DNA of 64,000 nucleotides from Dioscorea cayenensis subsp. rotundata (lineage: Eukaryota > Streptophyta > Magnoliopsida > Dioscoreales > Dioscoreaceae), in assembly GCF_009730915.1 (NCBI RefSeq), contig NC_052475.1:23745016-23809015 (forward strand), read 5' to 3'. This document shows positions 9,329-62,577 of the stretch, one piece after another. Within the stretch, counting starts at the first letter, position 1; each line of letters opens with the position of its first letter. A program made the translations under genes and the position numbers. The notes below the pieces were generated by a model. It did not search any database, was not told where the DNA came from, and saw only the letters and a list, made by a program, of their open reading frames with translations.

Positions 9329-12300
9329 ATGGAAGGGAAATGGTGCGTGGTTCTCGTCTTGGCGCTGTTGGCCGCGGCGGCTCTTGTTTCTGCGGATCGG
9401 GGCTTGAAGATCGGAAGCTCGACGGAGAGCGGCGGCGGCGGCGACGAAGGAGGTGGAGTGAGGACGTACTTGTTGCAGGTCGTGGAGTTCTTGTGGCAGC
9501 CGGATGAGTCGTCGTATCAGCATGTCTGGCCGGTAAGAGAGAGAGAGAGATGAGATCTTTTTTTGAGGTTTTTTTTTTTAGGGTTTTTTAGACTTTGGGT
9601 TTTGTGGTTTGGTTGATTGATCTTGTTGTTGGAGCAGGAGATGAGATTTGGGTGGGAGATCGTTGTGGGATCGTTCATTGGGTTCTTGGGTGCGGCGTTC
9701 GGGAGCGTTGGTGGTGTCGGCGGTGGGGGGATTTTCGTCCCCATGCTCACGTTGATCATCGGTTTTGATCCCAAATCCTCCACCGCCATCTCCAAATGTA
9801 AGCCTTTTTTCCTTTTTCTTTTTGTGCATTTGTTTTTGCCTGTAATCTAGGGGTCTGGTTGCTGGTTTTCTTGTACTGGATTCATTTTATTATTATTATA
9901 TATATTTTTTTCAATGGAAATATTCATAGTGTTGACCTTGCGGTGAATGGAGGAAGGTAAACTGGTAAAGTAACTGGCTTTGAGTTAACATATTATATAG
10001 GCCTTGTGAAAGTTGTAATTGTTTTGTGTGCCCCTTCAAAATTTTGGTTTTGAAGACGTATTCATGTAATTATAAATTTTGCAGGGTTGTATATGCAATT
10101 ATCAGTCTCTAGTCTCTACAAATACAATGGTTATTTTGTATGCAAGAATGAAAAAGACACCGGTTTTTTTCCGTATAGATGCTCGTCACATGACTGTCAA
10201 TTTTTTATGCCAAAGAAATTGAATTTTGTAGGGATACACAAAATGGATACACAAAATATGAATTGTTTGAGGGGTGTTTATGGAAAAAGCAAAACAAAGC
10301 TTACAATAACACTGGCAATAAGATTATCTGTTGAAAACTTTGTTTCCTTCTGTGGATGATAAAAGGACAGGCTAGTGAACAACGTTCGATGGATATGACT
10401 GACGAAACATGAGCTCTTTGTGACAAATGAGTTGGCGTGTATAGCTGACTTTCTTATCTTATTAACTAGAAAAAGATATCCTCAAACAGTATTAATTGTT
10501 TCTTTGTTTATTTTCAATTATGTTATTCTGTTTTTGTTTTTGTCAATTTGTTTGTTTGTATCCTTATATAATGCAGAACTTGCAGAGGGTAGAATCAATT
10601 TATGCTTTAGTTATTTAGATGATGCAACTTGTCAGTTAACATTCTTTTTTTCCCTGCAATTTTAAGAAAATTTTTTTTATCATGAAACTATGATTTGTTA
10701 ACATTGTTTGATCATGGTTATCTGGAACCAAGTACTGAATTCCAAGCATTTTGAACAGGTATGATCATGGGTGCAGCAGGGTCTACCGTCTACTATAATC
10801 TTAAGCTGAGACATCCAACTCTAGACATGCCTATTATAGACTATGATCTAGCTTTGCTTTTCCAACCTATGCTCATGCTGGGGATTAGTATCGGAGTCAT
10901 TTTCAATGTGATTTTTGCTGACTGGATGGTTACTGTTCTTCTAATAATTTTGTTCTTGGGTAAGTTCATGTCTCTTTTGTCTTCCCTTAAGTTGATAAAT
11001 GTTCTCTTTTTAATGTGTTTATTTGTTTTTTTTTCTTTTGACAGGCACATCAACCAAAGGCATTTCTTAGAGGTGTTGATACATGGAAGAAAGAGACCAT
11101 TGCTAAGAAGGTAAACTTCAGGGCCCATCATTTTATTCTTGGATGGTGTGTGATTGAATCTACTTGAAATCCTTGTTCACTTGTACACTTTTGGTCTTAT
11201 CTCAGGAGGCTGCTAAACAGATAGCATCATCTGGTAAGATGGTTTTTCATTTCTAAGGTATCATATTGTTTGTAATGGCAGAAGCTTAGTTCTCATTTTG
11301 ATGTGGTGCAGGAAGTGAAGAAATAGAATACAAAGCAATTCCTAGTGGTCCTGGAAATCATAAAGAAGCTAAGAAGACTGCAGAAACAGAGGTAAGTAAG
11401 AAATTTGAGCTTCTGCTTTAGTCTTCAAGGCAGTTGAATCTCACAGTAGCTAGAATTTTAGGTTCCAGTTCTTCAGAATGTCTGCTGGAAAGAGCTTGGC
11501 CTTCTTGTCTTTGTGTGGGTTGCATTTCTTATACTACAGATCACGAAGGTCAGTTTAATGCTTTTATCTGCTGTAATTTATCTACACCTCAATTAACTTT
11601 TTGATTTATCTTGATTTTACTTGTGTCATGCAGAATTATACAGAATCTTGTTCAGAATGGTATTGGATCTTAAATGCGCTGCAGGTCCCATTTCTTCCTT
11701 TATTTGTGCCTCAGACTAAATTTAGTGGAGTTGGTTTAGCACTTCAACTTCAGCACGTAAGATGTCTTCCAATGATATATTGCAGATCCCTGTCTCTGTT
11801 GGGGTGACTTCGTATGAAGCTGTGAACTTATACACAGGAAAGAGAGTGATTGCATCCAAGGGAGATGAAGGAACAAGCTGGAAAGTTCTTCAGTTAGTTA
11901 TGTACTGCTTAACTGGCATTCTGGCCGGCATCGTTGGAGGATTGCTTGGTTTGGGTGGAGGGTTTATCTTAGGTCCTCTTTTCTTGGAGCTTGGTGTGCC
12001 ACCTCAGGTCTGTGTTCTGTCGATTTTAAATGCTTTTTTTTAGTGATCACATACCAATTTCAATGTTCAGTGAATTTAGTCCTGAGTTGTTAATACACTA
12101 GATATTGAACTTTTGAAGCACACATGTCATGTCATACTCTTTGATGTCGTAATCAACAACTCTTGTGCATTTAACTTGCAGGAGTGATCACAAAGTTATA
12201 AGTGTTGACAGTGATTGAATAACATGTCATTAATTTTGGTTACGGTTGGGAAGTCAAATATCATATCATAATTAAAACTCAATAGCATGCAAGGCATTGC

Positions 12301-12973
12301 AGATAATTCTAAGCTTTTATACAACTTCATTTACTGGGTATAATAATCTGCTTTGTGTCTTAATGCAGGTCTCAAGTGCTACGGCCACCTTTGCCATGAC
12401 ATTCTCAGCATCAATGTCTGTTATTGAGTACTATCTACTAAAACGATTCCCTGTTCCATATGGTATCAGAACTTCACCTCTCATTCTCTTATCTTGTTTC
12501 ACATGATCAAACACTGAAAATTCACACCCATGATTAGAGAAATATTCTATTTCTCATCTATTTCCTCAAACCAAACATGCTTATAATTCTCATTTGAATT
12601 GGTTTACAGCTCTCTACTTCGTTGCTGTGGCCACGTTTGCTGCGTTTATTGGACAACATGCCGTCAGGAAGTTGATCAATATATTAGGGAGAGCATCAAT
12701 CATCATTTTTATCTTAGCATTAACAATATTTGTCAGTGCTATCTCTTTGGGTATGCGTAAAACATAACATATTCTCCTATCTCTTTAACCATTGATCTGT
12801 GGTGTACCATTTAGCAAGCTTTTTTTAGTGTTATCTTTTTTCGTTTGTGTCAAGTATCTAATCTAACAATTCTGTGATCCTCAACAGGTGGAGTTGGCAT
12901 CTCAAACATGGTAGTGAAGATCCAGAGGAAAGAATACATGGGTTTTGATAACCTCTGCAAATACCAAGTCTGA
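9329..12973 (+). CDS. Sulfite exporter TauE/SafE family membrane protein
   Basis: Twelve coding exons: 9329-9532, 9638-9797, 10759-10959, 11045-11110, 11206-11233, 11312-11391, 11462-11548, 11634-11684, 11786-12007, 12369-12462, 12610-12750 and 12888-12973. The product is about 472 residues, usual for the plant family. An N-terminal signal-like segment ([20 protein letters not shown]) precedes two TauE half-repeats with their glycine-rich helices: [16 protein letters not shown] in exon 2 and [16 protein letters not shown] in exon 9. Several further hydrophobic helices follow, and the end is DNLCKYQV. Family members are multi-pass anion exporters; substrate and compartment are not known here. 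All junctions keep phase, but exon 4 has one extra base in the 'ccaaaggcattt' context: the expected [14 protein letters not shown] reading is shifted. This may be an assembly error. The ATG chosen is the first in-frame one before the signal segment. Confidence 0.9.
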
Positions 12974-14106
12974 ACTTGAAAGGATTTTGTTTCGCTGAAA
13001 AAAAAAAATCAGTGATGATTAATACTTAATTTGTTTTTGTTTTGTTTTTATTTAGTTGTTATTTATTATTTTTGGAATCTCAAGCTTGGTCCCCCCAACT
13101 CATGTATCAATCTGTCATTTGTAACAGTGAATAAAAGAAGTTTTTTTTCTTCTTTTGTTTATGTTTGCATTATAGTTAATTATTCATTTCATTCTTGTCC
13201 ATTGCTATGTTCTCTAGTTTATGGTAAGCTTGAAATGGTCCACGTTGAAATTGACATTCCTAATAATGATCCTCTATTGGGGACAAAACATGCCCATGCC
13301 GAGTCATTGGTACTTTTTTCTGTAGTGATTTGACTGTTTCTTTAATTTAGTGTAAATGCATCTGTTGGGCGTCTTTTTACGTATATACCCTCGGCCCCGG
13401 GTTATTTATATGCAATCCTTGTTTGGCCTTGTTGGTATAAAAATATAAAATTAATTGTTTCCATAGAATTTCAAAATTGTATTGTATGTTTTAATTATTG
13501 ATTGTGTTTATTAATATTATCTGATAAAATATATTTATTTAATCAGTTAAATCTTATAAAGTAATCCTGGTCCACAATCAAACATCAGTACACCAATATT
13601 TTATCTAATGATCAATATAATTTATTATTTTACAAAAAATTTTAAAAATTACATCATAAATCTCTTGATAATGTTATTCAAAAGTTAATTCAACACCATT
13701 TATATAATTATATATATGTAAAACTTTGCATGTTAGCATGTATGAATGTATGTGTGCTTGCGTGAAACACTTATTTTTTCTTTCTCAAACAATGCAGAGA
13801 GCCCGAGAGAGGTACATTATGGTCATTTCATTCGACATTTATGTAATGGAAATAAACATAAAAAAAAGGAAAATTATTTCCTTTTCTCTTTCTATTTTTC
13901 CCCCAACTGAAAACACAATTAATGAAGAAATGTTTGCAAGAGAATTCATGGTCACACAAATCACTGGAGGAAAAAGAAAGGTGCAACCTCTCAATCAAAC
14001 AAGCACCATCTTTCAAAACAAAACCAACCTGACACTCAGAAACATTCACAAAATACAATGAGAAACCTTTTCACTCTTGTAACTGTTAAACTGAAACAAC
14101 AAAAGC
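12974..14106. other. 3' region of TauE and convergent spacer
   Basis: About 1.1 kb between two converging genes, AT-rich after 13440. It should hold both 3' UTRs. The open frames at 13031-13333 and 13726-14061 have no family resemblance or splice support. No other feature seen. Confidence 0.6.
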
Positions 14107-15837: not shown

Positions 15838-15890
15838 ATTCTTGTTGAAAATTATGTAAAAATCCTAACTTTTTCACCTCTACACCAGCA

Positions 15891-22442: not shown

Positions 22443-22450
22443 ATGGAAGC

Positions 22451-24266: not shown

Positions 24267-26784
24267 TTAAGAGCAACAAGAAAACAGTAGTATTTCTTTA
24301 GCAATTTCTTCAATAAGCCAGAACAAGATAAACTCCCCGACTATGTGGACCACTTGCTGTACTTCTTCTATGCAAACACAATAAGACCAGCCAACATCCC
24401 ACATAGAATTTATCAGTATGTCTTTGCATTTGAGATCTTTCTCTAACCGCACGTAAAGAGTATCTTCATAAGTTGCATCAGCATCAATTGCATTGTAAGT
24501 TGTAAGCTTTTCAAATGCTCTGCTAATCTCTGACAACAATGGATCTAGAGAGTGATAGAACTATGGGGGGCCTGGACATAGGCTCTGAACATTGATAGGT
24601 TTGCAAGCTCCTTCTGGTGGCTTTTCCGTGCCATTAACTCAATTGCACAATCCAAGAAAAGCTTAGCGTCTCTTGCTCCTGCTGCCTCGATGTTTTTCCT
24701 TCTGTATATTGGTTGGTGTCCATTAGGACTAATGAACTTCTGTGCATCCTTGAGGAATGTTTGGCTGCTCAAAAGAATGCCTTTCAAGTCCTCTCTGACT
24801 GTTGGTTTGTTTTCATACCATGGAGTAGCTTCGCCTGACAATGCTAAGCATCTTTCTTCTGAGATGATCTTTGGCAAAACTTCACCGACTGCTTTCTGTT
24901 CTTCTGTCAGAAAAAAAAGGATTTTTGAATTGAAACTGTTGGCAGTTCAGTCAAGAATGAAATTAGGCATTTGGATTGCGACTGGTTTACCAGTTCACAC
25001 TGAAGAACAGAATGAAGTATATGCATATTCATTTGTGGGAGATGGTAACATCTTTCAGAAATGTGAGAACTACGGAAAGAAATGCAAATGGATTACCTTT
25101 GCTGCAGGGTGTTTGGTTCACCTCTGCTTGTTTAGTTTCACCAGTTGCAGACAAATCGCTACTCACCAATGTTGAAATTGCAGCAGTTTCACATAATGGT
25201 TTGATCACTTTGCCATCATCTTTACTCTTTGTGCTATCTTTCTGCGCAAGTGATGATCAGAAAACCAAATCAAGGAACTGTTATTTAATTTATTTTTTCT
25301 CTAGCTGAATTGAACAATAAATCTTTTTCATGCAAATCTTTCTTATGTCTGCTCCTTCAAATATAGTGAATAAACATGAACAAGATGTATGTGACCAAGA
25401 AACTAATGAATGGAAACTCACAATTGCAGCATTGATTGCGGATGTTTTCACTGATTTAGCTTCAGCTGTCTTCTTTTTTCTTGACGAAGAGTTCTTTGTT
25501 GAATCTTTCATCAGATTGTTGGATTTATGTTTCTGCAAAGCAGATGCCTGTGCAGAAAGATTGCTCTTATCAAGTGAAGGTTTCTTCTCAAGCATGTGTG
25601 ACTGTTTAGAGGTATTTTCTTGAAACAAAGCCGCCGGCCTTCTGACCTTCACTTCCTTCTCCGCTGATTTTCTTCTGGTGAGCAATGGTTTTTGCCTGTC
25701 TACTGTCTTTTTGTGAGTCTTAAATTCTTCTTTTGCTTGTTCTTTTTGGGAATCCAAGGCTGTAAACTTTTTGGCATAATCCACTTTTGGCTTCTCAATA
25801 ATCTTCATACTTCCTATTGCAACAGTCTTGGTCTCTTTCTGCACATAATTTTTCTGCAAGTGAAATTCCTTATGAGCCTCTGGTCTTTCTTGATTAGGTG
25901 GCTTCAAAGGCTTCATGATAACTATAGGCAGGGTGTTCATCGTCGTAATGAAGGCGGCCACTTCTGTATCGTTCCAATGGCGAAGAATTAGGGGCCAATG
26001 GTTCAATTCTGAAATCTTCAGCTTGCCCATTCTTCAAAATTCCTTTGAATTGCATTTTCTCAATGATGTCTTGCAGTGTTTTTTTCTGCAGATCAGGACT
26101 TCTCTCCATCACCTGCTCTTTCCTAGCCTTAGGCATATGATCATCAAATGTCGGAGTTCTCAGAGGCTTTAAGCTCGACATCGTCTCATCCAAAGGTACT
26201 TCTTCAAGCCCCATAAGCTTCGCAATTAAATTTGGAGCTTTTACTTTCTTATTTGAACCAAATCCATCACGGCTTCGTTCACAATGCTCATCTCTCAATT
26301 CAGTTTCAGGATTAAACCTCATAGATCGGCTTGACAAAGCTCTTTCATCCTCCGGAGATCTAGACAACAGATTATGCTTCTGAAAGCTGTCTCTGATTAC
26401 TCTTCGGAGCTCGTCAATACAGTCCCTCGATGACGAACCATCAACAGAACGCCGTGCTTCTCTTTCACCATCAACTGCAGCCACATTCTTCTTTGTTGTC
26501 TTCGCCAATTGCTTCGACGCATCTTGGAGCTTCCCAAGCATCACCAACGACTCCTGAAGATCCATCGCACCTCTAAGAAGTTCTCTAGCTACATCCTTCA
26601 CCCGCCTATCAAGCTTCGAAGATTTAAACAATGAATCAATCATCTCTGTCAACCTATGAGCATCATTCGAAACCCGAACAAGCTGCAACTCAGTGTTCCT
26701 TTCCTCATGAGCCATTTGCAAAGAAGATGATGATTCTCTGAACTTTGATTCACAGACAGCTGATCTCATACTGTATTCATTCAT
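24267..26784 (-). CDS. DUF3741 / DUF4378 domain protein (TRM-like superfamily)
   Basis: Three exons, read leftward: 26784-25422, 25241-25097 and 24903-24267; about 713 residues. The N-terminal region has a helical block (ELLRGAMDLQESLVMLGKLQ), then the short motif APNLIAKLMGLEEVP typical of DUF3741-associated proteins. Next come a Lys/Ser-rich basic middle and a C-terminal DUF4378-like region (LFLDCAIELMARK ... PLLSEISRAFEKL ... WLIEEIAKEIL). Related proteins include TONNEAU1-recruiting-motif and LONGIFOLIA-like proteins tied to microtubules and cell shape; I cannot say which subgroup this is. The frame is interrupted near 25960 (one extra C in 'acaccctgcc') and near 24560, around a six-C run, where the net shift fits two extra bases. 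The start MNEYSMRSAV is preferred; a short upstream exon near 27000-27055 is possible but does not splice in phase. Confidence 0.8.
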
Positions 26785-27545: not shown

Positions 27546-27581
<36 letters not shown>

Positions 27582-30517: not shown

Positions 30518-32371
30518 ATGGTACGCATCTTTGACAGGAGACACAGCCTCCATAAGTCACTCAATCCCCAGTGGGACAATGTTTGATATCTCACCCAGAC
30601 AAGCACACAGCCTCATTCTTGATGGTCCATCCGTGACAACCTCTGTTGCAGAGATGAATAACTCGGTGTGCTCGAGAAATCTTAGCAGGGAACTGCCCGG
30701 CTGCCGTTTAGAGGACCAAGTAATCGGTTCAGCTCTGGACCGCCATAAACCTCTGAAATCTAAGCTGGAAAAGGATATTAATGCCAGTGATGGCATTGCC
30801 TCAGGTGAGAGCTTGCACCATTGTGATTAAGTATTATGATAAGTTTTTTTCTTGAATGTATGGCATGCATGTTTCTGAGATGATCATTGGATCATTAGCA
30901 ATCACTTGTGTTAATTTTGTTGTTTTAGAGATGGAGTTGATGAAGGAGAGGTTTGCAAAGCTGCTACTGGGAGAGGACATGTCAGGAGGTGGAAAAGGAG
31001 TTTCATCAGCTCTTGCTCTTTCCAATGCCATCACAAATCTCGCAGGTATGTATGCATATATATATATATATGTCATTATATATGTCATGGATTCTCAATG
31101 GATCACTTGTGATATATGTTTGTTTTGGATTTTGCTTCAGCTTCTGTTTTTGGGGAACAACGGAGGCTTGAACCCAATGTCTGTTGAGAGGAAGACAAGA
31201 TGGTGGAAAGAAATTGAGTGGCTTTTATCTGTAACTGATCACATTGTGGAATTGGTTCCTTCACAACAGGCAACTAAGGATGGAACAAATATGGAGGTGT
31301 GTATCTTTATTAATTTTCATTTTCCTGCATTTGAGATCCAGATTTGAATTTCATTCAACAGATAATCTTCAAAGAGAACTTACTTCTCTTGGTTGCATGC
31401 AGATAATGGTGACTCAACAGCGGAGAGATCTTCACATGAACATCCCTGCATTGCGAAAACTCGACACTATGCTCATTGTAAGCAACCAAAGTTCATCTCT
31501 AATGTAACAACAACAACAACATCATTTCATGTTTGATCTTAATTGTTTTGTGAAATTTAACCAGGGTTATCTAGACAACTTTAAAGACCAGAATGAGTTC
31601 TGGTATGCTTCAAGAGATGATAATGGTGATGCTCAAAACCAAAAGAACCAGAGGAGGGATGATAAATGGTGGCTGCCAACAGTGAAAGTTCCTCAAGAGG
31701 GGCTCTCAGAAAGTCACTAGAAAATGGCTGAAACATCAGAAAGAGTTGGTGAACCAAGTGTTTAAGGCTGCAATGACCATCAATGCTCAAGTTCTCGCCG
31801 AAATGTCGGTACCTGACACATACATTGAATCTCTTCCAAAGGTAACACATCCATTGCATTTATCAAGAGCAGAGAATATGAACTAAGTCACACTGTTATA
31901 AAAAATCTCATACAAATAAATAAACAGCATTGCAATTATGATACAACCATATAGATTTATAACACAGATGGTGGTTTTACATGACTCTTTATAACCATTG
32001 TGAATATCAATGACAGAACGGAAGATCAAGCCTTGGAGATGCATTATACAAGAGTATCAAAGCAGACATGTTCGACCCCGAGCAATTCTTTTCATCAATA
32101 GATTTATCGACAGAGCACAAAGTCCTTGATCTAAAGAACCGCATTGAAGCCTCCACTGTCATATGGAAGAAGAAGATGCACAACATGGATGGCAAGTCTT
32201 CATGGGGCTCAATTGTGAGCCTTGAGAAGAGGGAGCAGTTTGAGGAGAGAGCAGAGACAATCTTGCTTCTCCTTAAACAGAGGTTCCCTGGCATCCCCCA
32301 ATCAGTACTGGATATCAGCAAGATTCAATACAACAAAGTATGATGAAACAACAAAAAAACAATACATCTTC

Positions 32372-32402
<31 letters not shown>

Positions 32403-32852
32403 GTATACTAATATTCTGTTAATGTAAAACAGGATGTAGGACAGGCCATTCTGGAGAGCTACTCAAGAGTGCTGGAGAGCTTGGCATTCACAGTGATGTC
32501 AAGGATTGAAGATGTCCTCTATGCTGACTCTCTCACACAAGAACAAGCAAACAGTGGTTCTGCAAGAATGTCTTCTTCTTCTTACTGTTGTTCTACAAAG
32601 TCAGAGAGAACTTTAGAACCATTGAGGAAGCTGGATACTAAAGAGGAAATAGAGAAGCTCAGTGCTGGGGGGACACCAACAACAAATACTCTCTCAGAAT
32701 TCATGGGGTGGCAAGTTGATCAAGAGAAGGCAGAGCATGATGAGATGAAGTTCAAGTGCAAACCCCCAAGAATTATTGTTAATAAGAAGCTGACATACAT
32801 AGAGAAGCTAGAGAGCTTGGGAGGTGTGAGAAGCCCCATTTCAAGACATTGA
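30518..32852 (+). CDS. ROP guanine nucleotide exchange factor (PRONE domain), copy A
   Basis: Seven exons: 30518-30804, 30929-31045, 31141-31296, 31403-31477, 31565-31841, 32017-32337 and 32433-32852; about 549 residues. A variable N-terminus of about 95 residues leads into the PRONE domain, which activates plant ROP GTPases at the plasma membrane in polar growth. PRONE landmarks: [68 protein letters not shown] and [12 protein letters not shown]. The C-terminus ends KLESLGGVRSPISRH. Three single extra bases shift the frame: in the CCCC run near 30574, in the CCC run near 31175, and in the AAA run near 31711. Splice sites and the rest of the protein are intact, so consensus error is at least as likely as pseudogene status. 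Confidence 0.88.
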
Positions 32853-33611
32853 AAGAAAAAGGAGTTTGGGATCCAAATGAGTAGATAGCTTAGAAGAAAC
32901 ACAGACACACAGCAAACAGAGACACACAGTTATAGAGTGTGTATTGTTGTTTAGAGAGCTTTGTTACTTGTTGAATCCCTCTTGGGAGATGGGAAGAAGA
33001 ATTCAATGTGTAGGTTGATTAGGAGATGCAGTAGATGTTGCTTCTTCTTTTGAAGTGAAGACTTTGTACAAAAACAATCTCACACTTTGTGGTAACTTGT
33101 TGGTACTAACTTCATGTTGTTCCTAGGCAGCAGTGTGTGGTGGACAGATGAATCATATTTGTAAGATGGCAGCTTAAAATACATTTCTATTTGGTGCTTG
33201 AAAATTAAAATTTTCATTGAAATTTCTTCTCTGATGAGTAATGATAAATGTTTTTTTGTTTGGGATAGCAGAAATATTCTTAGAGGAACTTCTGTATACC
33301 TTAATGGTAGAAAGAATGTAAACTGGCAAGAAAGTAGAAACAAATTGACTTAATTGCCTTATTATCACTTAATGACAAGTATGAACTAGAACTAAGATTT
33401 ACAGATAAGCAGAAATATCTATATAGAAACATCTCTGCATACATTATTTTATATACAAATTAAAGCTTCACTCCAACATCAAGGAAGCATCCTACTTAAT
33501 CTCTTAATCACCCTACACTTTGAAGAATCATCTTCTTCATCATCATCATCATCAACAACAACTTTTCTTTCTTTCATTCTTCTTCTAAGCTATCAACCTT
33601 TCCTTCTCTTC
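32853..33611. other. Spacer between the convergent RopGEF genes
   Basis: 759 bp between two stop codons facing each other, holding both 3' UTRs. The two sides are not obviously inverted copies of each other, so by eye the recognisable inverted similarity stops at the coding ends. A CAT/CAA-type trinucleotide run lies near 33534-33560. Confidence 0.6.
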
Positions 33612-35430
33612 TTAGTGTCTTGCAATGGGACTTCTAATGCCTCCAAAGCTCTCCAACTTCTCTATATAAGTAACTTTCTTACTAAAACTAGCTCTTGAAG
33701 GCTTACACTTTAACTTCATATCCTCCAACTCCTCCTCCTCTTCCTCGGCTTCTTGTGAGTTCTCTTCATATACATTCCATCCAATGAAGTCCAAAAGTGT
33801 AGTTGATGTTGTTCTCTCCATAGCACTTAGTTTCTCCATCTCCTCTCTGACATCCAATTTCTTCAATGTCCCTGATACTCTCTCTGACTTTGTAGAATAA
33901 GAACAAGAAATTCTCTGACAATCTCCATTTGCTTGTTTTTGTGCAAGAGAATCAGCATAGAGAACATCATCTATCCTTGACACCAATGTGAATGCCAAAC
34001 TTTCCAGTACTCTTGAGTAACTCTCCAATATTGCCTGTCCTACATCCTGTTTGTCAATCAAGTTTCATTAGTATATATATATATATATAATTCATAGAAG
34101 ATGCACACTTTTTGAGTGGTGTTTCATCATACTTTGTTGTATTGAATCTTGCTGATGTCCAATGCTGATTGAGGAATGCCAGGGAACCTCTGTTTAAGGA
34201 TGTGCAAGATTGTCTCTGCTCTCTCTTCAAGCTGTTCTCTCTTCTCAAGGCTAACTGTTAAGCCCCATGATGATTTGCCATCCATGTTATTCATCTTCCT
34301 CTTCCATATGACAATGGATGCTTCAATACGGTTTTTGAGATCAAGGACTTTGTGCTCTGATGTTAAGTCTATCGATGAAAAGAATTGCTCGGGGTTGAAC
34401 ACATCTACTGTGATGCTCTTGTATATTGCATCTCCAAGGCTTGATCTTCCATTCTGTTAAGCAAACAATCATATGATATTATATCAATCTGGTCTATATA
34501 TTATTAGATTGTTAGTTTGTGTAGTTGTATTCTGACCTTTGGAAGTGATTCAATATATGTGTCTGGGACCGACATTTCGGTGAGAACTTGAGCATTGATG
34601 GCCATTGCAGCTTTGAGAACTTGGTTCACCAACTCTTTCTGATGTTTCATCCATTTTCTAGTTATTTCTGACAGCCCTTTTTCAGGAACTTTCACTGCTG
34701 GGAGCCACCATTTGTCATCCTTCCTCTGATTCTTTCGGTTTTGGTCTTCTTCGTTATCATTATCATTATTGTCTCTCGAAGCATACCAGAATTCATTCTG
34801 ACCTTTGAAGTTGTCTAGATAACCCTGGTTAATTTTCAGAAAACAATTAATATCAAAGCATGGGATAATGCTTTTTTCTTACATCAAAGAGATTAGCATG
34901 ATGTGGTTTCTTACAATGAGCATAGCATCAAGTTTTCGCAATGCCGGAATATTCATGTGAAGATCTTTGCGCTGTTGAGTCACCATTATCTGCACACAAA
35001 CATCAAAACAGAATGAACTTTGAATCTATCATATATATGTACTATATTACATTATACATCTTTGTTATACTAATCCAGTCTCTATATGAGATTGCTATTC
35101 ATATAATTAATATATCCTAACAAAGATGAGTATTGCCTTTTCCTCTTTCTCTTTTGTATCAATTACAAACTCTAACAATATGTAGAAAAATTCACAAGTT
35201 AGAGCAAAGATGAATACCTCCATGTTTGTTCCATCTTTTGATGTCTGTTGTGAAGGAACAAACTCCACAATATTATCAGTTACAGATAAAAGCCAATCAA
35301 TCTCTTTCCTCCATCTTGTCTTCCTCTCAACAGACATTGGTTCAAGCCTCCATTGTTCTCCAAAAACAGAGGCTGAACCAAACATCACAAGTGATCCATT
35401 AAGAAATCATGATAAATACAATGACATATA

Positions 35431-35463
<33 letters not shown>

Positions 35464-35939
35464 CTGCAAGATTGGTGATGGCATTGGAAAGAGCAAGAGC
35501 TGATGAAACTCCTTTGCCACCTCCAGACATGTCCTCTCCCAGTAGCAACTTTGCAAACCTCTCTTTCATCAACTCCATTTCTAAAACAACATAATAATCA
35601 TGAAATTAATAACAATTAGATACACCTATATAAAATAATGATCCAATATATAACATTTTCTTCACCTGCGGCAATGCCATCCTTCCCAAGTCTAGACTTG
35701 GGATCTTTATGGCGATCTAGAGCGGAACCGATCACCTGATCGGCTAAATGACGGTTAGATAGCCCTCCGCCAAGGCTTCTCGAGCCCGTGCTGTTATTCA
35801 TCGAGATGGCTTTAGAGCATTTTTCAGAGGGAACATCAAGAATAAGACTGTGTGCCTGTCTGCCTGATACCTCAAACATTTTCTCGCTGTGATTTAGTGG
35901 CTTTTGAAGGCTATGATTTCTGTCAATGAAGTGTACCAT
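33612..35939 (-). CDS. ROP guanine nucleotide exchange factor (PRONE domain), copy B
   Basis: Seven exons, read leftward: 35939-35666, 35580-35464, 35372-35218, 34989-34915, 34824-34537, 34453-34133 and 34046-33612. All are in phase, giving 554 residues with no lesion. Exons 2, 4 and 6 have exactly the same lengths as in copy A (117, 75, 321). Exon 5 adds four residues in an acidic Asn/Asp loop ([10 protein letters not shown]). The PRONE domain is complete ([44 protein letters not shown]) and the tail ends [11 protein letters not shown]. In exon 6 the two proteins differ at roughly 16 of 107 positions by eye, so the pair is not very recent. The start [11 protein letters not shown] matches copy A; an in-frame Met 15 bp upstream is possible. 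Confidence 0.93.
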
Positions 35940-37205: not shown

Positions 37206-40200
37206 TTAGTTTGTCATCAAAGGACGACCCTCCTCGATGTAGTCATCAGGCCCATCTTCTTCATCAGAAGAAAGAAGAGAAGAACCCATCCATGCTTTGA
37301 ATCCTTCAGTCACACGCCTCTCCATATCCGGTGTCACTTCTAGGGCAGATTCAGACATCTCCAAACCAAGATTTCGGCCAGCAAAATCAGTCTCATCAAG
37401 GATGGCAGCAGCTTTTCTTCGCAGAAAGAAGGCAGTTCCACCATACATCATCACTAGACCCCAAGAGGCAATCTCGTAGCACCAGAACAGAGGGATTGAA
37501 CAGCTGCTCCCCAGTGTGAGGATGCTTGATCCAAGAAACAGTGCCATTAGACCGAAGATAACAGCAAACACGACATTGAGAATTGACAGGCAGCGTACCC
37601 CACCTGCATAAGTAAAGAGTCATGAACAAGAAGCCAGGTCAGGACAGGTAAGAGGCATCGCGCGGATGTCCAGGCTTTAATCTCAGCAGGCAGTAGAAGT
37701 GAAAGTTGGCTGAAGTCAGCTTGGCCAATTATCTTCGAAACAAATTCAGAATATAATTCAATTTGCAATCCCACATACAACGCAAGGGTATACTCTTTAA
37801 CTCCAGATAAAGAAATAATCATGGGCCCATAGTACAAGGAGATCAAAGGAAACAATTTTTTGGATGTCATTAGTTGACATGCTAAACAAAAATAGAAATA
37901 ATTGTTATGATGTTATCTATTATGAATGATACAAAATGTTACCATCGTGTAAACAACTTAACATCATTACTTAAGGAGTTTTTGCAGAGCTGGATTTGAC
38001 AAACTCCAAAAGAACAGTATTTTGTTGATCATTTATGAATACCTTGACTTCAAGCAACCATAACTTTTGATCAAGTTGTAAAATTCAAGGTGCTTTAGTG
38101 TGGCATCGGTAAACTCATTTGAAGCTCTAGGTCCTCATAGGCAAGTTTTCTAAAAAACAGTCAAGGGAGATCAAGTTCAAATTCTATCATTTTCCATATC
38201 CATATGAAGTTTGTAGCAAGTGTATTCAGTACAATTCTGTTAGTTTACATAGTAGCTTCTTTTACTGATGTCATTTTACCATGGTAGCAATAATAGGTGA
38301 GAACAACAACCAAATACCAACAAGGAGAATTTTTTTTACTCGGATGCTTGCAAATAACTACAAAAGACCCCCTTTTATCCATGCAACAAAAGCTCGCATT
38401 ATTGTGAGGGGAAAAATGGGTATTGCCTTGACAAATATACCATCAAAAGTTCATGACACAAGAGGCATACAATACATTTATACACATGCAGCGTAGAAAG
38501 AGAAACAAAGAGTGCCACCTAAAAAATAAGCACACGGCTCTCCCTTGTAAAATACCACCAATGACCTTTTAGGTTAAATTTTCATTATGCAAGTATAAAC
38601 TCAGAATATGAAATTTCTTCTCTAGAAAGCATTTTTCAAACGCCCTTTATTGTGCATTAGCCTTATACAAAGTTTTGAAGGAACGTGATTTCCAGATAGG
38701 GATATAAAATAAGTAAAAATTTTTTTTTTATTCATCATAATAAAAAGGCAGATGGATATACATGTCATGAACATCGGTATAGTTTTGCTCACAAAACATG
38801 TACATCACATTGATGCTGATCATGCTCAGTGGATTTATCATCCTGTCCTATGCACGCCCACTAAATGCAAAATGCCCTCCCTGTGAGCTACTTACCTACA
38901 ACTAGGGGTGGCAATTTTTGACACGACACGTTTACACAACACGACATGACACGGTCTTAGGAGGGTTTGGGTTTGGGTTAAACGGGTTAGTGTCATAAAC
39001 GGGTCGACTCGTTTATGACACGCCTAAATTAAGCGGGTTCGTGTCATAAACGGGTTGACACGTATATGACACGGTTAACCCGTTTAATATGAATAGGTAA
39101 ATGTGTCTGATAGTAAACTTGATAAATTAATTGAATTATTCTCACGGCAAATATGATGTTTAAGTATTTTATGTTTAATGTTAGTTTGGATTTTTAAAAA
39201 AATGTTTTGATTAAAAATTCGTGTCGCGTGTCGTGTCGTGTGGCGTGTTAAACGTGTCGTGTTGTGTCGTGTTTTAAACAGATAAACAGGTCGTATTGAC
39301 CTATTTAAGACTTAAACATGTTAAACGTGTCGTGTCGTGTAGCCACGGGTTTTAGACGTGTCGTGTTCGTGTTCTAAAAAATTACCCGTTTAATAATCGT
39401 GTCGTGTTCGTGTCAGGGTTAAACGTGTCAGATTCACAAGTCAACCCGACACGAACACGACCCGCTAACCCGTTTTGCCACCCCTACCTACAACCAGCAT
39501 CCTTGCACAATTAAATGCCCTCCCTGTGAGTTACTTATCTACAACCAGCATCCTTGCACAATTCTTCTCCCAGTGTATTCAAAGAATCAAGAACCAGTAA
39601 ATACTTACCAATCAACATAACTTCTATAAAAGAAAATGAGCAATCTTTTGCATCATCAAGACTATTATTTCTTACCAGATTGAGCAATACAAAATCAAGA
39701 GATTAGGAGGCCCAGCAGAAGGCATAATTAATATGTCAATTTCAGCAAAAGACACTGAAAGATACAACAAAAGAAGGAAATTGTTCTCAAAATACCTCTT
39801 TTCGATGCACAATAATTGTTTTCAACCACCTTAAGGAATGGGTGCCTTCTTGGAGCATAATATGCCACAATCATCCCTGCAGTTGAAACCATATAAGCGG
39901 ATAAACCTTTAGCATTTGGCAAAGAAAAGCCACGAGATGTTAATTTGTAAAATTGCAGTAAGCAGTACTGGAAATTGAATTACACATCAACTAATACCAA
40001 TTTCAATTCCCTCCTCTTTCAAAACCTAAGTTCCAAATTCCAACCCAATGTAATTTTCTTCCGAACACCTAATTACCAAAAGCACCAATACGTGAAAAAA
40101 TTAACCTCAACTCACCAATATCCACGTTTGCATCAAATGGCATGATCAACTATGGAGCACTGTTCCCCAAAGCAGAATCCTAGATTCATGCTCTTATATG

Positions 40201-40803
40201 CAAAGATAGAAACTTTGAAGTAAGTGACCTAAGTGAACTCAGTTCACTACGGTCGACATTGCAAAATCAGTATGATCACCTATAGAGCAAAGTCCCAAAA
40301 AGCACATTCCAAAACCCTAATTTGCTATACAACACTAACCATATTCATGCACTTAAAAAAAATCCAAACTTTTTCACAAAGTTGCACATCAGAACAAACA
40401 CAAAACAGAGGAACTCCAACTCACCTGCCAAGAGATACAAAGCCGATGCCAAAAAGACAATCGCCGAAGGCACGAAAACAACCATCCAATAGTAATCCGC
40501 GGCCTCCTCATCCGTCAAATAGAACGCGCCATGGTACCCGTAAAGATCAGGCTCCTGCGTGGCATTTACGGGCAGCGCCTGGATCCTCCTATGCTTACAG
40601 AAGGGCCGCCGATTCACATCCCGGGGAAAGACGATGCTGAGGCTAACGGAGACAGCGATGACGCTAGAAAAGGCGATAGCACCGGTCAGTGCTGCTACCA
40701 TTGGCCGCTGGAGACGGACCCAGGCCTTATCCTCGTCGCGAAGGGAGTCGTACTCGCGTTTCGGCATAAAAGCCTGGCGGAGAGCGTCGCCGAGGATGGC
40801 CAT
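37206..40803 (-). CDS. Plant four-helix membrane protein of unknown function
   Basis: Three exons, read leftward: 40803-40425, 39876-39796 and 37603-37206, in phase, giving 285 residues. The N-terminus (MAILGDALRQAFMPKREYDS) is followed by four hydrophobic helices at about 36-60, 108-135, 158-182 and 188-212. Between helices 1 and 2 is a hydrophilic loop with two Cys/His positions (RPFCKHRR). The C-terminal tail is acidic (SSDEEDGPDDYIEEG) and probably cytosolic. It resembles a conserved, unnamed plant transmembrane family; no reaction can be assigned. The 2.2-kb second intron contains a complete hAT MITE. The start is the first ATG after a GC-rich leader carrying telo-box repeats. Confidence 0.88.
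38870..39561. repeat. About 50-bp tandem duplication split by a MITE
   Basis: The unit 'aaatgccctccctgtgag...cagcatccttgcacaatt' occurs twice in tandem. Copy 1 is interrupted by the MITE (38870-38902 continuing at 39495-39512); copy 2 is whole (39513-39561). The duplication or the insertion could have come first. Confidence 0.8.
38903..39486. mobile_element. Non-autonomous hAT-type MITE in an intron, 584 bp
   Basis: Terminal inverted repeats: taggggtggcaa at the left and ttgccacccccta-like (ttgccacccct a) at the right. The flanking 8-bp target-site duplication cctacaac (38895-38902 and 39487-39494) is perfect. Subterminal regions are dense in cgtgtcgtg / cacgacac repeats, typical of hAT transposase-binding sites. 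No coding capacity. It lies in intron 2 of the four-helix membrane protein gene. Confidence 0.93.
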
Positions 40804-40850
40804 GGGAGGTGGAATCGGTGGGTGGAGTTAGGTATCGTGGCAGTGCCTTG

Positions 40851-42039: not shown

Positions 42040-43262
42040 CTGAAAATTGGGAGTGAGGGTTGAAATAAATCATTTTTCTGGCCAGATATCACACCTCTTC
42101 TTCATTCTTTCAGAGCATGCTCTTCTATTATTGTGAAGAACGGGATTAATACGCTTCTATGGCACGATAAATAGTTGGATGGTAGAGCCCCTAAAGATTT
42201 CTAGCCCAACCTCTACATTGATTGTAGTGCTCTTTGGATTTCTTTAAGAGACTTTCTGTCTACTTTACATTCTCTAGAGATCTTTCACCTGTTTTGTTTT
42301 CAACTCTAGACATTCTAAGTAAGCAAGAGGATGTGAAAATTTGAAACTTGGAAAGTAATAGGATCTTCTCAGTTAGATCCTTTTTATCGTTTCCTGATGG
42401 ATGGTATTATTTGAATCCCTCTCTATCCAACCTTTTGAAAAGTGGGGTGTCTCAGCAAAATATCCCTTTTTTGCTGGCTAGCTTGGGATGATAAAATTCT
42501 TACCCTTTCCAACCTAGCCAAAAATGCTATAACACTCGTTGTGCTACTGGACACTTGTGTCCTACGTAACAAAAACACAGAGTCAGTGGACCATCTCTTG
42601 CTTAATTGTGACTTCTTAGATCAAATCTGGCATTTCTTTAAACAAAATTTCGGTCTTCACTCACACCCTCGGTCCATCTCAGATGTTTGGACCACTTGGA
42701 TCCTTTCCTTACAGGATTTTACAACGACTTTGCTGGGATCTTCTCTCAAGAGCTATTTTCTGGAATTTATGGCTTGAGAGAAATCATCACATCTTCGAAT
42801 TACATTCTCTTACCCCGCATTCAGTTATCTCTAAGATTACTTATATGCTTCTTGCTTGGATTTTTGCAGCTAGAGACCCGAGTCAACGATTTCTAGGTAA
42901 TTCCATTCAGAAAGCTAAGGCGCTCTATTGACTTCTTGAGCACATGTCTAAATGATCAGCCTGCCGCCATGACCACTTCTTTCCAAGAGTGATCAACTCC
43001 TTCCTTCAGCTATTAGAGGCCTTAGATGCCAGAGTGTGAACTTCACTTCTACAACTGCTTTGTTTCTTCTGTTTCTCCTGTTCTTTGGCTTTCTGCCTTT
43101 TTCCTGTTTTACTATTTCTCTTTTGGTTTTTTTGTGGAAGTATGACTTACCCCTAGAGACTGTTTCTCATTTTTTTGTTATTATTTTTTGTAATTCTATT
43201 TTGCTTGTTTTTTTATTTTTCATTTAATAAATCAGTGGTTTATCCACTTTATTTAAAAAAAA
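42040..43262 (+). mobile_element. LINE (L1-type) remnant, 3' part only
   Basis: Translated pieces match the end of plant L1-type ORF2: VKNGINTLLWHDK-like and DGRAPKD-like text near 42130-42200, then a zf-RVT-type segment near 42460-42640 (KISLFCWLAWDDKILT, then TESVDHLLLNCDFLDQIW). The element ends with a short non-coding tail and A-run (tttatttaaaaaaaaat at 43245-43262). Endonuclease and most of the reverse transcriptase are absent, and the remaining frame is broken by stops and shifts, so it is old and 5'-truncated. No target-site duplication found. Confidence 0.8.
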
Positions 43263-43906: not shown

Positions 43907-46351
43907 ATGGCCTCGTCCATGACGTTCCTCTGTGAAACCACACTGAGAAACGCGTTTCCAAGCAGGTCTTTTGCGTTTCCCAGCGGTTCACATGAAGATC
44001 AAAGGCCTTTGAGCTTCGGGTTTCATGGCGTCGCTCTTCGGAGAGCTAAGGCGGAGGTGAAATGGAGATCATCGAGGGAGGTGAGGGTCTGTGGAGAATT
44101 CCTCTTGGACTGGTGGGCATCTTGTTTCCCTTGTTTTTATTGTTCTTTTTATTTGATTGTGTTTTATTTATATATTTGTTTATTTATTTGTTTGTTTTTG
44201 CTTCTTTTGATTAGGGTTTGATTATTTTGGTTTTTGCCTGAAAGTTTTTTTGGTTAGGAAAAGCATAATTTATATATAAGTTTGGTTTTGGTTTCTTTTT
44301 ATAATTAGGTTTGAACCTTTGATTTGTGTATGAAGGTGGATGAGTGTTTGTTTGTTTTTGTTGGAAAAGAATCATTTTTTTTTAAAATCTCTTCCTGTTT
44401 CGTTTTATTAAAGGTTTTTTTAAAAAAATAAATAAATAATTTGTTAAAGTTTGATGTTTTGTTTTGTGTCTGAAGGTGTAAAGCTGTGTTTTTTTCTTAA
44501 ATCAAATAATAAATATTTACTTGATTTCTTCTTTCAAAGGTGTTTTGCTTCGGTTTCTGCTCCATTTCATTAGGTTTTGATGTTTTCATTTGTGCATTAA
44601 AGTATATATTGGTTTTTTTTTCCTTTGTTGAAAAAAAGTAATTTTATGTTTTTTTTTTCTAGTTCTTTTCCACGTTCCAAACATTTTTATTTACCTGATT
44701 AATTTCCTCTTTTATTTGATCTCTGTGATGATTTTGCTATGTGTTGGCAAGCTTGTAAATCTGGTGTTTCTGTTTGGAAAACTATTAAATTTGATTTTTT
44801 ATTATTTTTTCCCCACATCAAACAGGTGTTCAATGAATCACATAAATCATTCTTTTTCTTTTTCTTTTTTTCTTATCAGGCTCTGCAGATACAGATATCA
44901 ACAACCTCTTTGATGCACCTGTTCTCTCTAATACAGAGGTTTATTCTCAAACCTGAGAATTTTTCTCAATATATGCATATATTTGTAACTGTATTATTTC
45001 CACATTTATGTTATACTGTTTTCTTCTTAATTTATTGGATGAAATTAAACAAGCTTGATTTGATGAATTGCAAGGTTGCAGAAAGGCTAAGAACATACCA
45101 AGAACAGAACCAAAGCAATCAGCATTACATGGCCATGTTCTCCAGCATCTTTGGAGGAATTACAACTGATCCTGCAGCAATGGTCATTCCCATGGATGAT
45201 CATATGGTCCATAGAGGTCATGGCGTGTTCGATACAGCCGCAATAATGGACGGGTAAGTGACACAAATGTTCAATATATAGTTTCAGGTTTATATTCCCA
45301 ATCACTATGTTTGTGCAGTGCTTAATAATTTATATGCATTGCATGTTTATGTGATCTCAGACACCTGTATGAATTAGACCAACATTTAGACAGACTCTTA
45401 AGGTCTGCATCAATGGCAAAAATCGGTCTTCCTTTTGATCGTTCTACAATTAGGAACATCCTCATAAACACTGTATCTGCATCGAAATGTACTCAGGGTT
45501 CATTAAGATACTGGCTCTCGGTCGGACCAGGTGACTTTCAACTATCATCGTCTGGTTGTCCTAAGCCTGCTCTATATGCAATTGTCATTGAAGGCCGGTC
45601 TCTACCAGACCAAAAAGGTGTTAGAGTGATAACATCATCAATACCGATGAAATCTCCGGAATTTGCTATTATGAAGAATGTGAATTACTTGCCTAATGCT
45701 CTGTCCAAGGTGGAAGCTGAAGAGAATGGAGCATTTGTAGGCATTTGGTTAGATAATGAAGGCTATGTTGCTGAAGGTCCTAATATGAATGTTGCATTTG
45801 TAACAGCAGATAAAGAGTTAATGATGCCTCATTTCGATAAGATCTTAAGCGGTTGCACAGCGAAAAGAGTGTTGGTTCTCGCAGAAAAACTCATCGGCGA
45901 AGGCATGATTGATGGAATTAGACTTGGCAATGTGTCTGTAGAGCAAGGGAAAATGGCTGATGAAATGATGCTTATTGGGAGTGGAATCATTGTGAAGCCT
46001 GTTTTGCAGTGGGACAAACACATAATTGGTGATGGTATGATCTTTTAGTACAATTAGTTATATATCTGACTGTACATTAATACATCCAAAACTTGCACGA
46101 AAAACATTGTGTTAGTTAATATCTGAGTACGTTAATGCATCCAAGGCTTGCATGAATTGGAAAAGAAAATGTGGATTTTATCAGCAGTTTTGCTGACAAA
46201 AGATTGAAGAAAACTTTGAATGATTGTATTAATTTGGAATGCTGATGTTCTTGCAGGAAAAGAAGGTCCAGTGGCAAAAGCACTATTTGATTTGATTGTG
46301 GAGGATATGCAATCTGGTCCAGCTTCAGTTAGAGTGCCTGTTCCTTATTGA
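43907..46351 (+). CDS. DAAT: D-amino-acid transaminase / aminodeoxychorismate lyase, class IV PLP enzyme
   Basis: Exons: 43907 to about 44080, 44880-44938, 45075-45253, 45361-46034 and 46257-46351; about 396 residues. The protein follows Arabidopsis DAAT1 closely: ITTDPAAMVIPMDDHMVHRG, GVFDTAAIMDG, YELDQHLDRLLRSASMAKIG, SLRYWLSVGPGDF and SGCTAKR. The PLP lysine is expected in MKNVNYLPNALSKVEAE, with the active-site loop in EGPNMNVAF. The Arabidopsis enzyme is plastidic, interconverts D-amino acids and also makes p-aminobenzoate for folate. The first about 58 residues look like a transit peptide. The exon 1 to 2 join is unsettled: the best donor (44081) gives the wrong phase, while a weak donor at 44091 would restore it; an extra base is also possible. 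Exons 2-5 are in phase. Confidence 0.9.
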
Positions 46352-57149: not shown

Positions 57150-57369
57150 AATCTGAGTGAGCCTTTATTTTGTAGATTTTTTTTTCCTTTTCTCTTGGTG
57201 ATATTTGTAGTTCTTTTCAATATATATTTCTCATTTCATGCCTTATTTGTATGTTTGCGTTTGTTTTGATAATGTAAATCTTCAGCTAGACAGGAAAGGA
57301 TACATGAGGTTTTATTACAATGCTTATGAAACTCTGCTTTGTTGCCAATACTGATTTATCACTTATTTA

Positions 57370-57510
57370 GAATCATATTTCAGAGCCTGTATATGATTGT
57401 ATAAATTCTTAAGGAGAGCTTTCTTGTCTGTGAGATTGTAAGAATTATATTTCAGAGCTTGTATATGATTGTATAAATTCCATAGGAAAGTTTGCTTGTC
57501 TGTGAGATGG
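57370..57510 (+). repeat. About 71-bp tandem duplication downstream of the TOM1-like gene
   Basis: Units start agaatcatatttcag (57370) and agaattatatttcag (57441) and share gtatatgattgtataaatt and cttgtctgtgaga. They lie in or just past the 3' UTR. Confidence 0.85.
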
Positions 57511-57652
57511 TAAAATGCTGGGATGAAAGTTGCACATCTTTGGCACTCTGTTTCATGAATACAAGTATTATGATTGGGATTTTAGTGAAAGTATACATGG
57601 GAAAGAAATCAAAACAATGATTGTGAAAACAAGAATTTTAATGTGGTCCTTT

Positions 57653-60600
57653 TCAGATCTGGAAATCAATGACACATCCACAAAGCTTCTCGGCAGTCTC
57701 AATTCTACTGGTCATTGAATCAAGTTGTCTGAGTTTGCTACGATGCGAATTTTTGCCATTCTTCTTCGCAAGTTGGTGTTCAGCAGGCCGATGACATTGT
57801 TGGTTATGGTCATCAGATGAAAGTCCAGCTTCATTGCTGCCCTGTGAACCTGTTTCAAAAGAATTAAACATTTGATGACAAATACTTTGTTTTATTTCTC
57901 GACCTTTTTTTCTTTGTTCATAGTAAACATCTCAATTTGTGCCCTATGGTTGATACCAGTTTTGCAGAAAAAGAATCCAAGTGCCATCTAATGGAGTTTC
58001 AAAAGTTATACTTACATTCACCTCTTAAATTTTTATGTATAATAACATAAACAATTTTCATAAATCTCCTAAGATATGCTCTCTTTGTACAATTGGGTAT
58101 AGAACAAATCATTAAGGTTTGAGGCGGTATTTGTAATTAATCATGGCCTGTTTTACTAATAATGGTTCCTTGCAACCCTGAATACTGCAATTTATATAAC
58201 CAGGTATAATAAAGGAGGCCAATCCACAATAAACATCTAAATTAGTTATTGAAGAACAAAAATCTATTTATTGTTCTAAGCCTACTCATTCTGCAACACC
58301 AAAATGACCAGGCTAATGAAAATTAGAAAGAGAGCCAAAAACTCAGGATGTCTACCTTTCTGTGAAGATAATTTTGGTGTTGTCATGTCCCTTGTCACAC
58401 ATAACCAGGATATCTCTCCCATCATTCTTTGTTTTGGTGAAACAGGGATATGCCAGTGGCCTTGCTCAGACTCCTGAACATTTTAGGAAAAATTCAGGTT
58501 ACACAATCATGCTTCAAAATGAACTCTACTTACACTACAAATAAAAGAATTCTTCTGATTTATATTCAACTGAGTCTCTCTGACACTTTTTTGTTTCAAA
58601 TGAATTTGGAATACACTGCTATATTGTACCATCAAGGCTCTGTATTTAGATAAGTTCAGTATGACAAAGGATAAGAATTATATTCTTTGTGAACTTACGG
58701 AATATATATGATAGTTTGAGCATGTACTAAAGCTTGAGCAAACTAAGATGCAAACCTGGATAACAATCGAACAAGGAGGAGGCATGCGGAACTCAAATCT
58801 TCCATTACGGTAATTGAAATGTACCTATCACATGTATATGTATTTTTTCATTAGAGGTAGAGCATCGACAATAGTTAACAATTTTATTCATGCAAGCTTC
58901 TGGAACAACTACTACTTTGAATAAATTTGGAAACCACAAAGGCTATAGATGGTACTTCATCTAAAGTTTAACATGCTCAAATTTTTTAAATTCAGCATAT
59001 TGTTTTAACAAAACAGACCATTGATTATACAATCACCTATGCACTTCAAATGAATGTATACATATAGTCGCGATTGGATCATTGGATCAGAGATAAAACT
59101 AGGAAATAGATGATACTATCTGACTTAGTTAATACTTTATCTGGCAGTTGGGTATTCAAGATAAGAGATTTCTCTTGCATTATCAAGGCCTAAAACAAGC
59201 ATAAATTGCAAGCTTCACAGTACATTAAAATCTTCTATTTTTGTTAATGCTCAAGTACCTGATGCCTTTCTTTCCATTTGGGAAAGAAATCATTTCCCAA
59301 AAGCTGGAATAAATGGTCTCTCATCTCATCATTGGTAACGATCAAGCTTTTACATTTTATTGCTGCATACAACCAATACCTGAACCACATGTTATCACCT
59401 ACAGTGGTTTAAAGCAGAATATTAAAGCAATGTATAAAAACAAAAAACTTAAGGAAATATATTACCAGACTCTTAAAGGGACACTACATAAATCTCACAT
59501 CCCCTAAGAAAATAAGCAAATGAAAATAATAATAACAATAATGGGAGTCGAAAATGAGGCATATTTATGTTAACTCAGTTTCTCTAAAAGAACTCCAGTT
59601 GGGGAAGAGGATTAGCGTTGTTATGTTAAAACTCATCAATAGTTTGTCATGCATCCGTTTTGACAATGGCCTGTGTGCATAGAAAATGTGCTGTAGCACT
59701 AATTTGATACATCAGCTTGAGAAAAGCTAGGATAAATAAACTTCAAGCCAAACAAGTTTCCTATCCCCTTTTTCTCAATATTTTCATTCTGTAACACTAT
59801 GAATTCCTCTTTCATGTCCTCTGAGATTCAACTTGGCAAGAAACCAAGGTGATCAAGTGATACCAGAGGGAAACGTTGACAACAAAACATTTCATCTATT
59901 AATTTTTTTTTGGGTAGAGTTCTCCACATTGTTAATGTATGCTGCTAAGAATGATTCCAATCAACTTGAAGCCAATTTTTTTCTTGGAAATATGTAAACA
60001 TGAGTATAGAGAAAGGTACCACTCTGATTCTCGCAGATAGGGCATTGTCTTCCTCTGCCCAAACCATGGTACAGGTTCTGCATTAGCTTATGGCCTACTA
60101 AATACTAACTCTCTCCTGCTATGTGGCACTTAAAGAAAAAAGGGTACCGCATTCTGGGACTAACACTGAATGCCATAACAAATGCAAAATAATCCTGATT
60201 ATCCATAAGAAATTAGAAGGCAAACCACCCAGCTAGATTTCTGAAAACATGAAAAGATGACAGATAATTCCATATGTGATTGAAAAGTATATAGCATAAG
60301 CTTACCAATCATCATTAGACCCCGTAGGAGTTGCATAAATACAATCGGCGTTTTTCCATTTCTCTAGAAGCTTTTCATTTGCAGGTTCATCCATCCAGCC
60401 CCCAGTAAGACGCTTGTTATGGATTATGATAAGCGGCCATTTCTTTGATGGCAGTTTTTGCCGTATGGCATTAACAACAGTGTTGACCTATTTATTTATG
60501 AAAATGGTTCAATAGTGACAACCAGGATTTAATAATTCCATAACTCCACTGAAACAAACCTTGTTTATTGAAAGTTGCCTCTGGCTGAAAAGTCCCACAT

Positions 60601-62577
60601 TTGCGCCATCAACAACAGCTTCAAAAGGGCCATAATAGTCCAACCATTTCTGCATATAGTAAAAAAAAGAAGAAGGGAATATTAACTTATCAACCCTTCA
60701 AATCCATTAGGCTTCAAAAATTGATGACACTCAGAAGCTATAGTATTAAATTTGGATAGAGTCAAGGAAATGTCAAACTAGCATTTCCATAAATATTGAA
60801 GATGAGAAGATGGTTGGCAATAAAAGGGAAAGAAAATATTAAAAATATGGACCAAAAAGGGAGTTTTCTATCAGCTATTGTCAACGGTTCCATGAATATA
60901 TACACATAAATCACAAAAAAAAGGTATCTAGAGAGATTTCATGAATAGAATAGATGGGAATCTGCTAAAGGATACAAAACAGACAACACAGTGAGAAAGG
61001 CTAAGAATTCAAATGAATCAAGCTACTATACTTGAAATTTCTGAAAGCTCGAGTGTCTTTCCCTCTTGCAAGCTATTGAAGCTACAGATCTAGCAAAGTC
61101 TTCTGTCTCAATCGGATCAAGGTCTATGGTCAGCAATTTCTCACCACAGCCCAAGCAGATACCATCACAATCAATTTGCTCATGTTTAACGGTCCATTTT
61201 CCCTTCCCCAACCATCCTAAACCATGCCACCCCCCTCCGCCGTTCTCCATAGCCTGCTCGACTAACTTCCTATCCCATTTCCTCTTTCCCAATCTAGTAG
61301 CATTCTTACTCTTAAACCATTGCTCAATTAAACTAGCTGTGGACGGAGACACCTGCCTCACAGTAGTCCTAAGCTTATGCAGTATATAGTAAACCTTATC
61401 CCCTCGACATGCTACAACACTAGTTCTTAGAAGCGCCTCCAATTCAGGCTCTTCTGGGCAGACCCCAGACTTCAACATGTGTTCTTCTACTTCGAAAGCT
61501 TTCTCAATGTCGCCATTTTTGCAGTATACAAACAAAGCAGGACCATATGACCGCAACTTTGGGTTTATGCCCAAACTCTTCATCTGTTTGACAACCTCAA
61601 AAGCCATATCTCCATTGCCCATGGACAGTGCCATTCGTGCAACAGCTGTTAAAGCTGCCTCATTCATTGGAATTTCCTCCAAGCACATTCTTTCATATAT
61701 CTCAAACCCTCTTGTTCGGGCATAATCCCTGACGTCTTCACTAACCTGGATTGCAGTGCCCTGCTTCTCCCTGTGACTAATTTCATTCTCTTCATTGTAC
61801 CATTCGTCTGCTAGTCCATTTCCACTCATGTCTTCTGATTCGTCTTCACTGAAGTCACACACACTACTACTACTATTAGCACTGGTTCCACTACCACTTT
61901 TTGCTGGATGAACAACCCCAACCGCTGCAGAAGAGCACAAGTAGAGAAGCACATTATAATGATACTGCCCCAACTTGACACCATCCCTCACTGCGGAGTC
62001 ATACAAAGCTATAGATCCCATAACATCCCCCATTTTCGAGCACATATCCAGCCTCAATCGCAGCTCAACTTGAGCATGATGGTCCTTATCTTTCTTCCTC
62101 CTGTTACCCATCTTCCTCTTCTTCACTTTCTTCTCATTCAAAAAGCCACCAGCCACAAATTTTCTTCCTTTCTGATTTGCCCATCTCATCCTTCAGCCTC
62201 ATGGAACCATCCCTCTGCTTTCCACCTCTAACCCCAACCATTTCCTCACTACTCACTTGTCCACTCCCTTTATCTATAGACCTTAGAAAAGACATCGTAA
62301 AAGTGATACCTTTGTTTGCTTTGTCTCTTGGAGGCATTTCATCAGACACCTTGCAAGCAATGGGTTTGACAAGGGAAAAAGAAGGAAAGCCAAAGAGGAA
62401 GTGAGAAAGGGATTGGAACTTGAAGCCATTAGAGGATGAATAAGGGAAGTGGCTGGAGATTGGGAATGGGTCTGGTTGGAAGGGCTTGAGAGGGAGGAAA
62501 GAAGAAGCAGTAGTAGAAGAAGAAGAAGAAGCCATGGAGGGATGGCAGTTGGTGTGAGGAAGGGTCTGGGCTTCCAT
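57653..62577 (-). CDS. PRORP: Protein-only RNase P (PRORP), tRNA 5' processing enzyme
   Basis: Seven exons, read leftward: 62577-61032, 60649-60560, 60487-60306, 59379-59259, 58824-58756, 58473-58356 and 57849-57653; about 773 residues. A Ser-rich N-terminus (transit-like) leads to PPR repeats (LDMCSKMGDVMGSIALYDSA, SYGPALFVYCKNGD), then the bridging zinc domain (GICLGCGEKL; GHWHIP; SWLCV supply the two Cys, His and Cys). The NYN metallonuclease keeps its acidic residues (VVDGANVGLF, GSNDDWYWLYA, VTNDEMRDHLFQLLGN). It cleaves 5' leaders from pre-tRNAs in organelles or nucleus. Two additions stand out: an acidic Ser-rich insert (DFSEDESEDMSG) within the PPR part, and a C-terminal tail of about 65 residues. 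One extra A in a run near 62163 shifts exon 1; all other junctions are in phase. A second possible start is Met at 62535. Confidence 0.94.

Follow-up and report, generated by a model that had tools for sequence, protein, structure and literature searches.

Residual insertions and deletions in long-read assemblies disrupt reading frames, so that intact genes resemble pseudogenes, and such assemblies are known to be weak in homopolymer tracts, as described in excerpts of two studies (Kastor, PMC12007338; PMC8495745). At the read level, raw PacBio data carried approximately 8% insertions and 3% deletions and corrected Nanopore data kept mostly deletions, according to an extract of a further study (PMC7671305). 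The locus described here shares with the cases in the first two excerpts the broken frames and, probably, intact genes that resemble pseudogenes; it differs from them in that its checkable errors are all insertions. Two of its genes also have described plant counterparts, the PRONE-containing RopGEF family with AtRopGEF8 and the ribonuclease P protein PRORP1.

The window analyzed is a stretch of 64,000 nucleotides (G000:C5:23745016-23809015) from a yam assembly of 584,211,761 bases. Four of its genes, a TauE-like gene, a TRM-like gene with a VARLMGL motif, RopGEF-A and PRORP, change reading frame, as judged from their own stop codons and the phases of adjacent exons. A sequence-only reading of the window had placed seven break sites in these four genes; all seven are present, with some of the coordinates shifting by up to ~30 nt.

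Results

RopGEF-A and its inverted paralog

The two RopGEF genes, A and B, are arranged as an inverted tandem pair (30518-35939) with a dS of ~0.56, and parts of their introns can still be aligned.

RopGEF-B (33612..35939, minus strand) is intact, with a 554-residue open frame, GT-AG introns and a match to AtRopGEF8 (PDB 2ntx, E = 3.5e-170), and was used as the control for its neighbor. As in the family, RopGEF-B is an open-frame member, whereas RopGEF-A (30518..32852, plus strand; seven exons) has PRONE matches in three frames and, as assembled, cannot encode a complete PRONE domain in a single frame. Three single extra bases account for this. One falls in a C4 run at 30566-30569, next to the GGG run that contains the previously given position 30574; another is in a C3 run at 31173-31175, and the last, at ~31713, is beside AAA and outside a run. 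When the coding regions of A and B were compared exon by exon, eight gaps were found, five of which were multiples of three and went in both directions; the other three were the single bases extra in A. Because AtRopGEF8 aligns gap-free with B at both PRONE sites, the bases there are extra in A and not lost from B.

In the codon comparison, 540 of 555 RopGEF-B codons were gap-free, or 539 once the terminal stop pair was dropped, and RopGEF-A showed no premature stop in these 539 aligned codons. Overall, dN/dS between the two was 0.21, with 0.13 for the PRONE core and 0.29 for the ends. With AtRopGEF8 as the outgroup, 13 replacements fell on the A lineage and 12 on the B lineage (349 columns, with 10 of 359 dropped). 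RopGEF-A is constrained about equally to RopGEF-B, and purifying selection on it has continued. Among the four broken genes, relaxed selection was sought in RopGEF-A alone, where no sign of it was found. Splice damage by substitution was likewise not found in the introns inspected in RopGEF-A and in the TauE-like, TRM-like and PRORP genes, all of which are GT-AG.

TauE-like and TRM-like genes

The TauE/SafE-like gene (9329..12973, plus strand) comprises 12 exons with GT-AG boundaries, and its read-through, with an X placed at the break, scores 79 bits against Pfam TauE. With exon 3 ending in phase 1 and exon 5 continuing in phase 0, exon 4 (11045-11110) should be 65 nt long. It has 66 nt, compared to 65 nt (hand count) in the paralog L002 (contig C2217), and the difference lies in AAAGG at 11056-11060. 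In L002, compared over the counterpart of exon 4, the matching exon is unbroken and GTSTKAF is intact.

The TRM-like gene (24267..26784, minus strand; three exons) had been called a DUF4378 gene. That name is tentative, because Pfam detected VARLMGL but no DUF4378, also when the C-terminal pieces were searched in joined form. Breaks are located near 25931 and at ~24555-24570, and the paralog L025 (contig C17) is open in one frame over both. A listing of genome matches shows one TAG in the L025 match; none was seen in the matched part of the L025 translation. Stop codons alone confine the first break to 25894-26033, within which one extra base fits best, likeliest in CCC at 25931-25933 as opposed to the 25960 given before. 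For the second break, two extra bases at 24560 had been proposed, and this agrees with the paralog: two conserved codon pairs are separated by 56 nt in the window and by 54 nt in L025 (hand count). Considering the frame alone, a single missing base would likewise close the TRM-like gene here; that solution leaves the window one residue longer than L025, and two extra bases therefore fit better.

PRORP

PRORP (58356..62577, minus strand; 3′ end of the gene provisional) was joined from six exons with GT-AG introns, over which the full downstream frame is kept. This frame encodes the PPR and nuclease parts, and the upstream frame encodes a serine-rich N-terminal stretch. The product matches AtPRORP1 (PDB 4g23) at 1.7e-96 and Pfam PPR_long and PRORP; it resembles the plant protein in its PPR part, and its nuclease exons fit the Pfam model for PRORP, whereas the frame change between the N-terminal stretch and the remainder sets it apart. 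As the two frames overlap over 62134-62192, upstream of the part aligned with AtPRORP1, neither the place nor the sign of the break can be fixed.

Direction and context of the extra bases

The earlier proposal that each gene loses frame through extra bases thus stands for the seven bases checked against paralogs at six of the seven sites, PRORP being the exception. None of the seven fits as a missing base, in line with the earlier statement that no clear single-base loss was seen. The two-sided sign test for extra versus missing gives P = 0.016, or 0.031 when counted by the six sites (hand-computed). At these six sites, the corresponding paralogs of the same genome, RopGEF-B, L002 (TauE) and L025 (TRM-like), are unbroken. 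The additional suggestion that the bases are mostly in runs holds for five of the seven, which lie in runs of at least three, and fails for two, which lie outside such runs. Runs of this length make up 16.5% of 12,027 coding bases; the enrichment is soft because the base placements were chosen by the analyst. The spread of the breaks over genes is compatible with a uniform one (P for four or fewer genes, 0.22), in a test with little power and with partly estimated gene lengths.

Neighboring genes and flank

Breaks were absent from RopGEF-B, the PPR open frame and LC8, the last read by eye. The description of the neighbors as intact applies to these three; LEA_2 and TOL, also named as intact, were seen as separate open exons and not as joined frames, as was a membrane-protein gene. 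This latter, a probable gene at 37206-40827 on the minus strand whose exons are open frames only, was absent from the sequence-only reading. So was a class-IV aminotransferase (43907..46349, plus strand; five exons; Pfam Aminotran_4, 128.9 bits), the joined frame of which is open with a splice donor for exon 1 at 44090 and broken with one at 44080. If 44080 were the real donor, the gene would add an eighth site, with one missing or two extra bases.

A zf-RVT match of 44 bits at 42439-42774 is probably the remnant of a LINE-type element. The left flank (L004-L013; C5:23645016-23745015) contains four runs of exactly 1000 N, which may be scaffold gaps. Scanning 264 kb for frame switches by hexamers gave a very long list; most of the switches listed were meaningless, frequently with opposite signs at the same position, and the scan was discarded.

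Non-coding repeats

Typical LTRs have TG...CA ends. Two direct copies of ~710 bp in the window (3010-6856) flank ~2.4 kb with 20-bp tandem repeats, and their ends are without TG...CA.

These copies, at 3010..3719 and 6143..6856 (both plus strand), are free of substitutions over 714 aligned columns and differ in run length at three places. At the other end of the window, a three-copy tandem repeat starts at 63869..64000 (plus strand) and continues beyond the window to 64558 in window numbering; its three-copy alignment contains six substituted columns and five indels, one of which is the end column. Pooling these two youngest families, indels make up 8 of 14 differences, with one of the eight an end column, corresponding to P values of 0.0024, 0.010 and 0.054 at assumed indel shares of 0.2, 0.25 and 0.33, respectively. 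Repeat pairs were collected from 264 kb including the window (≥150 bp, ≥90% identity), giving ten rows, of which nine were counted and one, being nested, was dropped. Across the seven older pairs, 101 mismatches were counted along with 40 gaps (P = 0.011 for an assumed indel share of 1/5 and 0.20 for 1/4). The excess of run-length differences in the young repeats leans toward leftover run-length error, in a way that is suggestive rather than strong. The fitted non-coding floor is half of 0.0076 per base of pair, a value that counts the middle tandem copy twice and leans on one pair. The coding break rate of ~5e-4 (8 in ~16.7 kb, partly estimated) is far below that floor.

Discussion

We consider it most likely, with a probability of roughly 0.85, that the extra bases are errors left in the assembled sequence and that the plant carries all four genes intact. 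Run lengths would mainly have been written one base too long. Against the unbroken paralogs, the length differences are one base at five sites and two bases at a sixth. The DNA of the plant would then be without the extra bases, the PRORP break probably arose by the same process as the other sites, and the source would be long-read consensus. The insertion excess resembles the raw PacBio profile more than the corrected Nanopore profile in the extract cited above (PMC7671305), a comparison made at read level that identifies no technology here. Several observations weigh against assembly error. Slippage in run length also occurs as natural mutation, and the repeats do not show which copy is wrong; the fitted non-coding indel floor far exceeds the coding rate; and two of the seven checked bases are outside runs of at least three. 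Moreover, the aminotransferase could hide a break of opposite sign, one TAG is listed in the L025 match and the evidence from selection comes from RopGEF-A alone.

The insertions could instead be real and very recent, null alleles in the plant that are too young for relaxed selection to have become visible. The bases do stand in the assembly, dN/dS would stay low after a young loss and the paralogs RopGEF-B, L025 and L002 might tolerate it. This reading is nevertheless unlikely: it has to affect four unrelated adjoining genes, all seven checked bases are extra with none missing, and many run-length differences occur in the young non-coding repeats too, so that error is likelier than four coincident recent lesions. 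Were the lesions real and young, they would mark a haplotype with several one-base insertions in adjoining genes and hint at a local insertion-prone process, which we regard as very doubtful. Older pseudogene decay, old enough to be visible, would account for frame breaks in four genes and for the three within RopGEF-A. It is poorly supported where it can be tested and contradicted for RopGEF-A, the one gene to which this evidence applies, which has GT-AG introns, no replacement excess and aligned codons free of premature stops; the probability of such decay is close to negligible.

Some breaks might also be bypassed by another splice site or start codon, in which case the sequence may be right at those places. 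The TauE-like gene offers two acceptors that would keep the frame, at 11073 and 11094, the former skipping approximately nine residues that are present in L002. In PRORP, an ATG lies at 62189 in the main frame, and the frames could be joined by any of 349 formal introns; exon 1 of the TRM-like gene has 753 such introns, and exon 1 of RopGEF-A has 16 together with an in-frame ATG just 3′ of the break. Counts this large indicate that formal introns are plentiful by chance. TRM-like exon 3 has none, and every option listed for exons 3 and 5 of RopGEF-A (listing 7 of 7 and 12 of 17 options, respectively) removes at least 21 PRONE-core codons that are kept by RopGEF-B and AtRopGEF8. Bypass is a highly improbable explanation.

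Under assembly error, the breaks are an ordinary artefact that is useful as a warning. Since sister copies are unbroken at most sites, the genes need checking before they are called dead; the caution against pseudogene calls already given by the sequence-only reading is backed by the unbroken paralogs and by purifying selection on RopGEF-A and, more weakly, by the young repeats. Paralogs from the same genome offer a cheap, read-free check for frame breaks of this kind. Automatic annotation of this assembly might fragment or drop four or more genes, an RNase P gene among them, and such breaks could mislead work on gene loss in this genome.
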